A stretch of DNA of 64,000 bases, from NCBI RefSeq assembly GCF_013377085.1, contig NZ_JACAAX010000028.1:1-64000 (forward strand), in the 5' to 3' direction. Below, in pieces: positions 20,746-28,058 of this stretch (the stretch's first letter is position 1; every line of letters starts with the position of its first letter). The DNA comes from Rhodoplanes sp. GTDB taxonomy: Bacteria; Pseudomonadota; Alphaproteobacteria; Rhizobiales; Xanthobacteraceae. The translations under genes and the position numbers were made by a program. Below the pieces are notes generated by a model. The model did not search any database and was not told the DNA's origin. It saw only the letters and a list, made by a program, of their open reading frames with translations.

Positions 20746-21141
20746 ATGTCGCTGTCTCTCCTGTCGTCGGGGCCGTCGGCCCCACCTGCGCCGCCGGTCG
20801 CCGCCGCGTCCGATCGGGTGCCTCGCTGTCCGGCCGATGCGCTGCGCGAGCTGGTCGCCACCGTCTTCGGGTTGCCGCCTGCGGTGCTGTCGGCGTCGTC
20901 CCGCGGCGGAGCCGAGGTCGCCTTTGCGCGCCAGACCGCCATGTACCTCGCCCACGTGGCCTTCGGGGCGTCCTACAGCGAGATCGGCCGGGGCTTTGGC
21001 CGCGATCGCACGACGGCGGCGCATGCCTGCCGGGTGGTCGAGGAGCGCCGCGACGACCCGCGGGTCGAGGCCGTGGTGCAGCGGCTCGAGCGGCTGCTCG
21101 CCGCGGCGCTGCGCCGCGCCGGCGAGGGGAGGCGGGCATGA
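20746..21141 (+). CDS. Stand-alone DnaA domain IV (helix-turn-helix) protein
   Basis: A 131-residue protein with no AAA+ ATPase. Residues about 30-115 align in pattern with the C-terminal DNA-binding domain of DnaA: ALRELVATVFGLPPAVL, FARQTAMYLAHVAFGASYSE, and the recognition helix IGRGFGRDRTTAAHACRVVE, which keeps the R-D-R-T-T-x-x-H-A core that reads the DnaA box. The N-terminal 25 residues are Ser/Pro/Ala-rich. It should bind DNA but cannot hydrolyse ATP or open an origin. The stop overlaps the start of the DUF6456 gene (ATGA), so the two are coupled. Confidence 0.82.
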   Translation: MSLSLLSSGPSAPPAPPVAAASDRVPRCPADALRELVATVFGLPPAVLSASSRGGAEVAFARQTAMYLAHVAFGASYSEIGRGFGRDRTTAAHACRVVEERRDDPRVEAVVQRLERLLAAALRRAGEGRRA

Positions 21142-21800
21142 GCCGGGCCTCGCGCCGCAAGTCGGTCCGACCCGGGTTGCGGGACGGCGTCGACGCCGGG
21201 ACAGTCGCCGAGATCGGCCCATTCCGGGCCAAGCGCCTGGCCGTCGCCCGCCGACCGGACCCGGACGCGCCAGGCAGGACGGCTTCGGCCAAAGCCGGAT
21301 CGACCGGGACCGGGCCGGCCGGGACCGTGCTGGTCAACGAGGCCGAGAGCCCGCTCGCCTGGCTGGCCCGCCGCAAGGGCCGCGACGGCCGGCGGATGAT
21401 CGAGCCGGAGCAGTTTTTGGCCGGCGAGCGGCTGCGCGCCGACTTCACCTTCGCCCAGCTCGGGCCGCGGCTGTCGGTCGACTGGTCGGCGCCGCTCGCC
21501 GCCGGCCTCGGCGGCGGTGGGCCGGCGGCCCTGACCGACGCCGTGATCGCCGCCCGCCAGCGCCTCGCCGGCGCACTCGCGGCCGCCGGCGCGGAGTTCT
21601 CCGGCCTGCTGCTCGACGTCTGCTGCTTTCTCAAGGGACTCGAGGACGTCGAGCGCGAGCGCGGCTGGCCGCCACGCTCCGCCAAGGTGGTGCTGCAGCT
21701 CGGCCTCGACCGGCTGGCCCGCCATTACGGGCTGGGCGGCGAGGCGCGCGGGCGAGCCCGGGTACCGGTGCGGGCGTGGCGGGCAGAACAGGGTGAGTAG
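21138..21800 (+). CDS. DUF6456 domain protein
   Basis: A 220-residue soluble protein. After a basic, probably disordered N-terminus (about 70 residues) comes the DUF6456 core NEAESPLAWLARRKGRDGRR, then PEQFLAGERLRADFTFAQL and VDWSA. A later helix LLLDVCCFLKGLEDVERERGWP precedes a helix-turn-helix-like tail AKVVLQLGLDRLARHYG. The domain is widespread in alphaproteobacteria without established function; the tail suggests DNA binding. Its ATG lies in the last codon of the DnaA-like gene. Its TAG stop is supplied by the first unit of the GAGTAGC repeat. Confidence 0.8.
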   Translation: MSRASRRKSVRPGLRDGVDAGTVAEIGPFRAKRLAVARRPDPDAPGRTASAKAGSTGTGPAGTVLVNEAESPLAWLARRKGRDGRRMIEPEQFLAGERLRADFTFAQLGPRLSVDWSAPLAAGLGGGGPAALTDAVIAARQRLAGALAAAGAEFSGLLLDVCCFLKGLEDVERERGWPPRSAKVVLQLGLDRLARHYGLGGEARGRARVPVRAWRAEQGE

Positions 21801-22494: not shown

Positions 22495-22926
22495 TCAGCC
22501 CGGCGGGCGGGCCGCGATCTCGCGGCGGGCCGATGTCCCGCGCCAGTCCGGCGCGAGGTCGGCGGCCGAGAGCGTGTGCTGCGACGCCACCGGGCGCGCG
22601 AGGTCGCCCTTGGCGGCAGCCGCGCCGGTCGTGACCGGCGCGCGTTCGGAGCCGGCGAGCGTCTCGCTCACCATCTCGTACATGATCTTCGCACCGGCCT
22701 GGGCCTTCTGGCCGATCGACACCGCGACCTGCGCGCCGACCGCGCAGACGTCGGGCTGACGCGAGCAGAACTGGCGCATGTCCGAGACGGTCGACGCGGC
22801 CGCGGTGGCGGCGTCGGCCGCGCTCACCGCGGACTGGCCGGGGCCGTCTGTCGGCGATCGCGTGACGGTGGGCAATAGCACCGCCACGACGCCGAGCCAG
22901 AAGGCCGTGCGCAACAAGAAACCCAT
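22495..22926 (-). CDS. DUF5330 domain protein, membrane-anchored
   Basis: A 143-residue protein with one N-terminal hydrophobic segment (MGFLLRTAFWLGVVAVLLP) acting as an anchor or signal. A low-complexity Ala-rich stretch then a conserved block MRQFCSRQPDVCAVGAQVAV and IGQKAQAGAKIMYEMVSE make up DUF5330. The two cysteines may form a periplasmic disulfide. Function is unknown. AGGA precedes the ATG. Its upstream region is shared with the divergent sensor kinase gene. Confidence 0.78.
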   Translation of the reverse strand: MGFLLRTAFWLGVVAVLLPTVTRSPTDGPGQSAVSAADAATAAASTVSDMRQFCSRQPDVCAVGAQVAVSIGQKAQAGAKIMYEMVSETLAGSERAPVTTGAAAAKGDLARPVASQHTLSAADLAPDWRGTSARREIAARPPG

Positions 22927-23036
22927 TGTCCTGTCCCCGTGGTCCCCGTCTCCCTCGTCCCGTGTCCCCGTTTCTCGTCTTCCCCGACCCGAACGCTAGC
23001 AGCGCCGCTTTGACGCGCGGTTCGCCGCACCGGTGC

Positions 23037-23046
23037 GATTCGAATC
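23037..23046. promoter_or_regulatory. Tandem GANTC (CcrM-type) sites
   Basis: GATTC and GAATC abut at 23037-23046, forming the palindrome GATTCGAATC. GANTC is the target of the CcrM cell-cycle methyltransferase of alphaproteobacteria. The pair lies 111 bases upstream of the DUF5330 start and in the shared control region of the kinase gene. Confidence 0.4.
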
Positions 23047-23207
23047 GAGTTTTCAGACAATTCGAACGATCGCGTTCACCATCGGTGAGGACCTGCCACA
23101 CCCGATCGGACGCGGTGGATCAAAGGCTCGCCCACCGTGAGGCCGCGCCCGCCGAGAATGCCGCAACGACGGGCGTTCACGCGGCGTCGGCGCTTTTGGA
23201 AACCTCG

Positions 23208-23264
23208 CGTTCACCAATCAACACTGCGTTCACCATTCAACATACCGTTCACCATCAGCGCAGA
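23208..23264 (+). repeat. Three direct repeats CGTTCACCA(T) at exact 19-base spacing
   Basis: CGTTCACCA begins at 23208, 23227 and 23246, so the period is 19 bases. The units read CGTTCACCAATCAACACTG, CGTTCACCATTCAACATAC and CGTTCACCATCAGC. A further CGTTCACCAT is at 23073 with its own inverse (CGGTGAGG). They lie 140-200 bases before the DivJ-like kinase gene. The arrangement looks like a multi-site protein-binding region. Confidence 0.7.
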
Positions 23265-23330
23265 ATGGATCACGGCGCAGCGGCGTTTTCCCCACCCCAT
23301 GGCAAGCGAACGTCGTCGGAGCCTGCGTCC

Positions 23331-23345
23331 TTAGTGTTCGTTTAA
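23331..23345. promoter_or_regulatory. CtrA-like box TTAG-N7-TTAA upstream of the sensor kinase
   Basis: TTAG, seven bases, then TTAA match the half-site pattern and spacing of CtrA sites (TTAA-N7-TTAA) with one substitution. It lies about 60 bases before the kinase GTG start. Confidence 0.5.
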
Positions 23346-23403
23346 TGGGGCTCTGAGACGATCGCCTTCGACGCGAAGGGGCGCGTCCGTCAAAGGACGT
23401 GCA

Positions 23404-26372: not shown

Positions 26373-26720
26373 ATGCGTTTGAAATCCGGCATCTGGGTCG
26401 CGGCCTATATCCGCCGCTGCGGCGTCGAGGGTGTATTCGCGGCGGTGCGCCGGCGTGGCGCCGATGACGCCGGGGCGATCTTCATCATCGTCAACCGGCT
26501 GAACGGCACCGCCGACCTCTATGGTCCGGCGCCGCAGACCGCCTTCGACGAGGAGAAGCCGTTCGACCGCGCCTTTGCGTCGGTGCTCGCCGACAGCCCG
26601 GCGCCGGAAAGCGCCGCCGAGGCCTTCATCGTCCGCGAGAGCCGGTTCGATCCCGACGTCTGGGTGATCGAGATCGAGGAGCCGTCAGGACGCCACTTTC
26701 TCGACCGGGTCGTGCGCTGA
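26373..26720 (+). CDS. DUF1491 family protein
   Basis: A 115-residue cytosolic protein starting MRLKSGIWVAAYIRRCGVEG. The conserved core GAIFIIVNRLNGTADLYGPAP and a tail DPDVWVIEIEEPSGRHFL match DUF1491, an alphaproteobacterial family of unknown role. The 3-prime end overlaps the convergent DUF2336 gene by 36 bases. Confidence 0.85.
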   Translation: MRLKSGIWVAAYIRRCGVEGVFAAVRRRGADDAGAIFIIVNRLNGTADLYGPAPQTAFDEEKPFDRAFASVLADSPAPESAAEAFIVRESRFDPDVWVIEIEEPSGRHFLDRVVR

Positions 26721-27653
26721 GCCGGACTCGGGAGACGGGCGGGCCGGGGGGCCGATACGGCTCGGAGCGGTGCGGTCGAGACCGCCGCGGTCGTGGCCGG
26801 CAAGCCGGTCCGGGATGGTGGCACCGATCCGGCTGCGCACCAGGCCGGCGCCGCGCGCGGTCGGCGTCGCCGGACGCTTGCGTTCGGCCGGCTCGGCGAT
26901 GCGCCAGGCGGCGACCAGTCGCAGCGCCGCCGCGAGGCTGACCTCGCCGTAGAGCGCGCTCAGCGCATAGACGCGGCGCACCGAGTGGCCGATCGCCGGG
27001 TTCACGAACAGCAGGATGCGCTGCAGCGCTGCCGTCGGCACGGAGAGCGCGCGCGCCGCCACCACCAGCGGCTCGCCGCCGAGGTCGTTGACGATCCGCT
27101 CGGCCAGCGTCCGCGAGACGCCGAGCGCCCGCTCCAGTTCTCGGACGAAGTCGCCGGGACGCCCGGCCAGCACGCTCGTCTCCAGACGCCGCGCCACATC
27201 CTCGGCCGGGGTCGCCCAGTCGTCGCCCTCCAGTGCGCCGGCGGCGTCCAGCACCTGCAGCATGGCACGGCGGCCGTCCGCCTCGGCATTGAAGAAGTCG
27301 CGGATGAGGGTTTTGGCTTCGGCGCGTACCGCGGCGTCAGCGCGCGTCGCGGCGGCCTCGTCCTCCTCCGCACCCAGAGCCGGCGTCTCGGGGCGGCCTT
27401 CCAGGCGGGCGAGGATTTTCTCCGGAGCGCCCGGATAGGTGGCGAGCCGCCGCGCGACGATGTCGCGGGTGGCGGCGTCGACCGCATCGATCAGGCGCAG
27501 CGACAGCTCGACATACTGGCGTTCCTCGTCGGCCGTGTGGGTCGGCTTCTGAACATAGAGGTCGGTCAACACCCGCAGCAGCGTCGGCTTCACGTCGACG
27601 CCGTGCTGGGCGAGCCCGACCAGGCTGTCCAGTCCTGGAAACAAGGACGACAT
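26685..27653 (-). CDS. DUF2336 domain protein
   Basis: A 322-residue, mostly alpha-helical cytosolic protein, starting MSSLFPGLDSLVGLAQHGVD. DUF2336 occurs in alphaproteobacteria; its HEAT-like helical repeats are seen here at about 30-260 (VELSLRLIDAVDAATRDIVA; LERALGVSRTLAERIVNDLG). The last 60 residues are basic and Pro/Arg-rich. Function is unknown. A CtrA-like box lies 76-90 bases before the ATG, suggesting cell-cycle control. Confidence 0.8.
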   Translation of the reverse strand: MSSLFPGLDSLVGLAQHGVDVKPTLLRVLTDLYVQKPTHTADEERQYVELSLRLIDAVDAATRDIVARRLATYPGAPEKILARLEGRPETPALGAEEDEAAATRADAAVRAEAKTLIRDFFNAEADGRRAMLQVLDAAGALEGDDWATPAEDVARRLETSVLAGRPGDFVRELERALGVSRTLAERIVNDLGGEPLVVAARALSVPTAALQRILLFVNPAIGHSVRRVYALSALYGEVSLAAALRLVAAWRIAEPAERKRPATPTARGAGLVRSRIGATIPDRLAGHDRGGLDRTAPSRIGPPARPSPESGSAHDPVEKVAS

Positions 27654-27728
27654 CACGCAACAAGCCCCCGCCAGGTCCTCTCGACCATGTCCCCCGAAAC
27701 GACCTGCCGCGAGCTTAGGACGGACTCG

Positions 27729-27743
27729 TTAGCGGAGCCTTAA
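27729..27743. promoter_or_regulatory. CtrA-like box TTAG-N7-TTAA before the DUF2336 gene
   Basis: TTAG, then CGGAGCC, then TTAA gives the exact CtrA half-site spacing. A further TTAACC occurs 14 bases on. It is 76 bases upstream of the minus-strand DUF2336 ATG. Confidence 0.5.
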
Positions 27744-27980
27744 CCCAAACAACCCATTAACCTTTTTGGCGCAATCCGAACGACCCTGAGAGGCTTTTGT
27801 AAAGCATGTCGGGTGGCCTCGACGGCGGGCCGATGACGGGCGAGGGGTGATGTCGGTGGGACGCCTCACCTCCACGGAGTCGACCGCAAGCGGCGGCTCG
27901 TCCCCGTGCGGTAGCCTGAAACCGCACCGGAAATCGCCGGTGTTGCCCGGACACAACCGTTCTGGAACAAGGGCTTACAC

Positions 27981-27995
27981 TTAACGAACCGTTAA
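27981..27995. promoter_or_regulatory. Perfect CtrA box TTAA-CGAACCG-TTAA
   Basis: An exact TTAA-N7-TTAA site, the consensus of the CtrA master regulator of alphaproteobacteria. The following base pair CC extends the match to TTAACC. It lies 64 bases before the 65-residue plus-strand gene at 28059. Confidence 0.65.
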
Positions 27996-28058
27996 CCAAA
28001 CCGGCCCCTAATCGGCGGTGGCAGACCGCGGATCACTCACGATCCGATGGAGGGAGCC

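Follow-up and report, generated by a model that had tools for sequence, protein, structure and literature searches.

Promoters with several CtrA sites, and control of divJ by CtrA, are already in print. In Sinorhizobium meliloti, divJ is directly activated by CtrA, which binds in its promoter region (PMC4433202, available text), and the ctrA promoter of the same species carries five verified CtrA sites with the consensus TAA-N7-TTAAC (PMC3616915, in the portion available). The pilA promoter of Caulobacter crescentus, as set out in the accessible sections of PMC11264516, contains four CtrA sites, with the extra, off-consensus ones located upstream of the -35 site. These upstream sites, two of which are only 3 bases apart, reduce and delay expression, and binding of CtrA to the deviating sites taken together is stronger than to the -35 site, indicating that an off-consensus sequence alone does not mean weak binding. 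CtrA is described as binding TTAA-N7-TTAAC, and TTAACCAT is given as the ungapped version, or half, of this site (PMC3692519, PMC6180460 and PMC7200025, available text). Neither the TTCACCAT form nor a 19-bp array was reported in the openly accessible literature we searched.

Here we analysed a 64,000-nucleotide stretch of a Rhodoplanes sp. contig (NZ_JACAAX010000028.1; hereafter the window), in which an array of short repeats precedes a divJ-like histidine kinase gene (Table 1). The kinase combines PAS, HisKA and HATPase_c domains with DivJ as its best curated match (NCBIfam NF050805, 253.7 bits), a score below the equivalog cut-off of 1000 of this Caulobacter model, and the nearest named relative is R. 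piscinae (68% over the best-matching kinase segment). The genes before it encode MucR, a DnaA domain-IV-like protein, DUF6456, SufE and DUF5330. The second of these products (window 20746-21141), encoded between MucR and DUF6456, is a short protein that resembles DnaA domain IV only (Bac_DnaA_C). The DnaA signature is DHST; this protein has DRTT in its place, and its DNA specificity may differ from that of DnaA.

Table 1. Features at and around the divJ-like kinase gene in the window
Feature	Position	Strand	Remarks
DUF5330 gene, divergent	22495..22926	-	Pfam; distance to array varies between genera (tblastn, G018, G041)
Fourth CGTTCACCAT copy (23073) inside AATTCGAACGATCGCGTTCACCAT	23059..23082	+	Separate conserved stretch
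Array unit 1	23199..23217	+	GAAAC-N6-TTCACCAA; candidate CtrA-type box, both halves off-consensus
Array unit 2	23218..23236	+	TCAAC-N6-TTCACCAT
Array unit 3 (family-wide "distal box")	23237..23255	+	TCAAC-N6-TTCACCAT
Proximal TTAG-N7-TTAA box, CtrA-like	23331..23345	+	Followed by conserved TCTGACACGATC
divJ-like histidine kinase, 632 aa	23404..25302	+	Pfam PAS, HisKA, HATPase_c; N-terminus hydrophobic by eye
DUF2336-like gene	26685-27656	-	Pfam 27.6 bits, below the 34.6 cut-off

An earlier note on this DNA had placed CGTTCACCAT repeats of 19-bp period at 23208, 23227 and 23246, a further copy at 23073, GATTCGAATC at 23037 and a TTAG-N7-TTAA box at 23331, and each of these elements lies exactly there. 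The step between the three consecutive units is exactly 19 bp, and from the start of TTCACC in unit 3 it is 83 bp to the TTAG of the downstream proximal box. The unit at 23208 reads CGTTCACCAA, a 9/10 match to CGTTCACCAT, and a unit with this CCAA ending also comes first in the congeneric genomes G001, G002, G003 and G005. We rejected the copy at 23073 as an array unit, because the AAC of its left half is shifted upstream by one base relative to the true units; its CGTTCACCAT part is kept in G002 and G005, carries one change in G001 and is degenerate in G003. The surrounding AATTCGAACGATCGCGTTCACCAT is conserved across most genus genomes compared, and in about 10 other regions ATTTCGAAACCAT or AATTCGAAACCAT precedes the distal box by some 31-35 bp; this AATTCGAACGATCGCGTTCACCAT/ATTTCGAAACCAT/AATTCGAAACCAT stretch is a possible further regulator site. 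A plus-strand open frame of 139 aa (window 22926-23345) spans the array and is probably not a gene, because the gaps of the genus alignment in this stretch are not multiples of three.

The repetition is not due to chance. With up to one mismatch allowed, the window contains 11 copies of CGTTCACCAT, a count reached in none of 100 shuffles (mean 2.59). An 8-mer present three times at a single spacing of 10-40 bp arose in 2 of 300 simulated windows, and the real window holds one further triple 8-mer, with period 14, near 21,780. Within the 6.48-Mb host assembly, the array is the sole match to CGTTMACCA-N7..11-GTTMACCA. The pattern NNAAC-N6-TTMACC has five matches in the window, all on the plus strand, three being the array units and two lying before the DUF2336-like gene. 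Three CtrA-type boxes (TTAGCGGAGCCTTAA, CAAACAACCCATTAACC and TTAACGAACCGTTAACC; window 27729-27999) are located before this same gene. Exact CGTTCACCAT has 19 copies in the host genome against 1 for the reversed control. We viewed the surroundings of the 10 forward copies and of one of the nine minus-strand copies (contig C32): three forward copies are the window's own, and a genome-wide CGTTCACCAT regulon was rejected since most of the other seven look coding by eye, with one possibly intergenic.

The array is conserved in relatives. The earlier note had named absence of the repeats upstream of orthologous kinases as the observation that would count against it; on the contrary, each of the six same-genus genomes searched (the host included) has the array upstream of its divJ-like orthologue. 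G000, G001, G002, G003 and G005 carry three units; G004 also carries three, but partly changed. When 198 family genomes were scanned with a loose pair pattern, 26 rows in 17 genomes were returned, against 1 match for the reversed control. The 16 of these with the exact 19-bp step fall in 8 genomes, comprising the six of the genus together with G018 (three units) and G041 (four units), in both of which the array is flanked by the kinase and DUF5330; G039 carries two units, one of them altered at one base. At the sequence level, two to four boxes at 19-bp steps thus precede the kinase in the host genus and in three other genera. For the 10 rows of the scan with shorter spacing (9 genomes), tblastn placed neither the kinase nor DUF5330 nearby. 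The same note had grouped the repeats with a GANTC pair and a CtrA-like box before a DivJ-like kinase. The conserved element and the CtrA-like box held up; the GANTC pair, which is not conserved as a pair within the genus, was discarded as a conserved partner, and the copy at 23073 proved to be out of register.

To define the wider distribution, we searched 61 family genomes, 45 of which gave a kinase match at 1e-60 and 16 none; these 45, together with G001, G004 and G005, supplied 48 divJ upstream regions. TTCACCA stands at the distal place in 45/48 regions (36 genera), the exceptions being G008 (TTTACCA), G057 (TTAAACA) and G025 (none), and TTA[AG]-N7-TTAA is present in 47/48. The alignment behind the logos comprises 46 regions, including G008 and G057 and omitting G043 (no strict TTAG box, though TTCACCAT is present) and G025 (no distal box). 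It yields G[GC][AC]AAC-N5-GTTCACCAT for the distal site and CTTAGYGTTCGYTTAAG followed by TCTGACACGATC for the proximal one. The distance between the two is 82-84 bp in 37 regions, 71-74 bp in 7 and 53 bp in 2, corresponding to 7.8-8.0, 6.8-7.0 and 5.05 turns at 10.5 bp per turn. The changes in distance are therefore close to whole helical turns, a pattern that is suggestive only, few of the changes being independent. One distal box about eight helical turns before TTAG-N7-TTAA thus emerges from these alignments as a family-wide divJ feature. A search for remnants of extra units in the single-box genera gave no signal at -19 (36 rows, with 6/7 matches reached in 1 of 36).

In our best reading, the CGTTCACCAT units are probably the right halves of tandem off-consensus CtrA-type boxes that tune divJ. 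A single base distinguishes CGTTCACCAT from CGTTAACCAT, which forms the right half of the family's CtrA-type box at flgB, and all three window units read NNAAC-N6-TTCACC, with a left half at N7 spacing. The general form at divJ is NNAAC-N6-TTCACCAT, a direct repeat of 11-bp period. Its left half, whose placement does not depend on that of the right, is marked by AA at -9/-8 in 44/46 aligned sites, which is the geometry of TTAA-N7-TTAA; at ten other offsets tested, AA occurs in 0-3 of 46 sites, except at the overlapping -10, with 19. Both halves depart from the consensus in sequence. The right half has 7/8 bases of TTAACCAT, with C as third base in 44/46 sites, and the left half is usually GMAA at divJ (GAAA, TCAA and TCAA in the window units) instead of TTAA, mostly extended to GMAAC, with some units of G001 and G003 reading GAC or AAG.

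A matrix of flgB boxes points in the same direction. It was built from 25 of 30 loci with a pattern requiring TTAACC; the short loci L310, L311 and L327 gave no match, and L317 and L329 have TTAACCAT without an AAC left half, L329 showing TTTACCAT beside it. With this matrix, the divJ distal site ranks first among 864 placements in 44/48 regions, a ranking aided by the TTNACCAT common to both site classes; it ranks 5th in G008 and 15th in G038. In G000, G001, G002, G003 and G005 the array units take the top three places, with unit 2 the best match in G000. Spacer preferences are also common to the two classes, with a pyrimidine at -2 in 25/25 flgB and 42/46 divJ sites and a purine at -1 in 25/25 and 45/46, respectively. 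The proximal TTAG box scores low (e.g. -5.1 in G007), so that it is read as a CtrA site from its resemblance to TTAA-N7-TTAA, and as the box driving divJ from this resemblance together with the Sinorhizobium case. Within the genus, TNAAC-N6-TTMACCAT has 32 matches in 5 genomes against 0 for the reversed control, and A-form matches (third base A) lie just before flgB in 5/5 genomes; in G001 and G005 they also precede a DUF2336-like gene. Both genes were named by eye from translated open reading frames. The host genome encodes CtrA (L400; NF045991 equivalog, 425 bits, cut-off 350). A separate locus, L407 (1405-1851, own contig C67), encodes a 149-aa protein with a CtrA-like recognition helix, identical to CtrA at 24/64 residues, in which we found no receiver domain and only weak matches to two phage families.

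These results do not support the earlier statement that the CtrA consensus does not explain the unit, given its single-base difference from CGTTAACCAT, its left half at N7 and its flgB-like spacer. Its dismissal of DnaA and LexA was upheld. The alphaproteobacterial LexA box is GTTC-N7-GTTC, and the GTTC copies of the array, 19 bp apart, leave a gap of N15 rather than 7 bases; the DnaA box has a TTATCCACA-like core, and by eye the array has none. A CenR site (TGA-N8-TGA, an 11-base repeat) was likewise rejected, the minus-strand TGA steps in the array being 12 and 7 by eye.

The third base of the right half separates the sites into two forms. It is C in 44/46 aligned divJ sites and in 24/24 sites at another DUF2336 gene (30 loci, 20 genera with a site), whereas all 25 flgB boxes used (19 genera) have A; a looser scan of the flgB loci found no C at this position, though the matrix pattern itself demands A. 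Of 30 fliN loci, 13 have TTNACC at that place, with C (4), A (7) or T (2) as the differing base; seven of these 13 lack the AAC left half, and the sites with a full NNAAC left half have C 4, A 1 and T 1. We also took 40 divJ upstream regions of other families from 71 order-level matches in 150 genomes: 12 contain a TTCACCAT-like octamer (up to one mismatch) at very roughly the same distance, 3 of the 12 having a left-hand AAC, and 28 contain none. The third base in this set is A (L266, L300), G (L283), T (L276, L279) or C. The C-form box at the DUF2336 gene, present in 24/30 loci and mostly reading TTAACAAANNGTTCACCAT, is the second widespread one; in the host (L228:4028-4046, own contig C39, 12327-12345) it lies upstream of the DUF2336 gene, oriented opposite to that gene, with a CheY-like gene about 2 kb away.

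This partition is an argument for a different regulator that owns the C-form boxes of both divJ and the DUF2336 gene, either another OmpR-family response regulator or a reader of the dyad AAC-N5-GTT, with CtrA using the A-form and perhaps the proximal TTAG box. The genome indeed has 15 Trans_reg_C matches, of which CtrA is one and the receiver-less L407 with its CtrA-like recognition helix another, and AAC-N5-GTT is a dyad. The differing base, however, varies at fliN and at divJ of other families (there mostly with weak left halves), and the spacer preferences are common to divJ sites and flgB boxes; the dyad is broken at -1 in 11/46 divJ sites, with the same G/A choice there as in the flgB boxes, and the TGA-N8-TGA given for CenR in the available text of PMC9275681 does not fit the spacing. 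The unrecognised regulator that the earlier note took to be implied thus finds no support, and we consider ownership of these boxes by another regulator unlikely. A second reader keeps some probability because the third base is nearly fixed at divJ itself: a single, freely tolerant reader should let this base drift, and the near-fixed C speaks against one. We read the retention of C as selection for a set affinity. More tentatively, the C-form box TTCACCAT may be a distinct regulatory class kept apart from the A-form, either as a CtrA site purposely set to another affinity, so that divJ and the DUF2336 gene are kept for one particular level of CtrA~P, or as a site of a second factor with CtrA-like specificity; in the genus it would be stacked into a cooperative array, setting a threshold on the CtrA-DivJ-DivK loop. 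We regard this proposal as possible, though rather doubtful.

Two further alternatives concern what the array serves and whether it is functional as an array. It shares a divergent intergenic region with the DUF5330 gene and lies about 280 bp from the start of that gene, which could accordingly be its target instead of divJ. We find this very unlikely, considering that every unit points toward divJ, that the distance to the divJ proximal box is near fixed as given above, and that the distance from array to DUF5330 differs between G000, G018 and G041. Tandem units are present in only 9/48 regions, the others having one box or none, as would be expected of a neutral tandem duplication of one functional box by replication slippage. 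Across five genus genomes, however, 28/33 motif positions are invariant against 6/24 elsewhere in the array and 12/73 in the flanks (Fisher p 7e-6 and 2e-11, respectively, with the third unit as anchor and the genomes not independent), and the CCAA ending of unit 1 is retained in 5/5 near-complete genus genomes, so that neutral duplication is highly improbable.

Returning to the CtrA-type reading, we infer CtrA binding, phase-dependent contact and a direction of effect. Phosphorylated CtrA would bind the distal array boxes and the proximal box, the latter, TTAG-N7-TTAA, driving divJ. The off-consensus distal boxes, by analogy with Caulobacter pilA, would most likely set the CtrA level or the cell-cycle time of divJ expression. 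They would contact the proximal box in a phase-dependent way, and would either raise divJ expression or, on the pilA pattern, lower it and make it later. A step of 19 bp does not amount to a whole number of turns, and full simultaneous occupancy of neighbouring units is not certain because their half-sites are only 8 bp apart. DivJ phosphorylates DivK and thereby lowers CtrA activity, and CtrA control of divJ would close this feedback loop of the alphaproteobacterial cell cycle. With the distal box at a near-fixed distance in most of the 36 genera and a natural copy number of 1 to 4, the copy-number variants and the one-base difference from the flgB boxes offer a ready-made set for relating site affinity and number to the timing of cell-cycle genes.

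Compared with the described systems, the locus would resemble S. meliloti divJ in the kind of regulator, the target, CtrA binding upstream and positive control; unlike here, the available text of PMC4433202 does not describe a distal array or the TTCACCAT form. The S. meliloti ctrA promoter is similarly multi-site, but it serves autoregulation of ctrA, and the accessible part of PMC3616915 describes no regular array. Caulobacter pilA is alike in having several off-consensus CtrA-type sites upstream of another site; as far as the available text of PMC11264516 goes, its spacing is irregular, the half-site gaps at sites 2 and 3 are 6 bp and the gene is different, whereas the divJ array proceeds in equal steps of 19 bp, with N7 spacing and C almost fixed as the third base. 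Relative to the CtrA half-site TTAACCAT given in the available text of PMC3692519 and PMC6180460, the divJ unit has 7/8 bases in common, with C rather than A as the third. The array is no clear sign of an unknown regulator and is probably a conserved variant of the known CtrA-type multi-site promoter.
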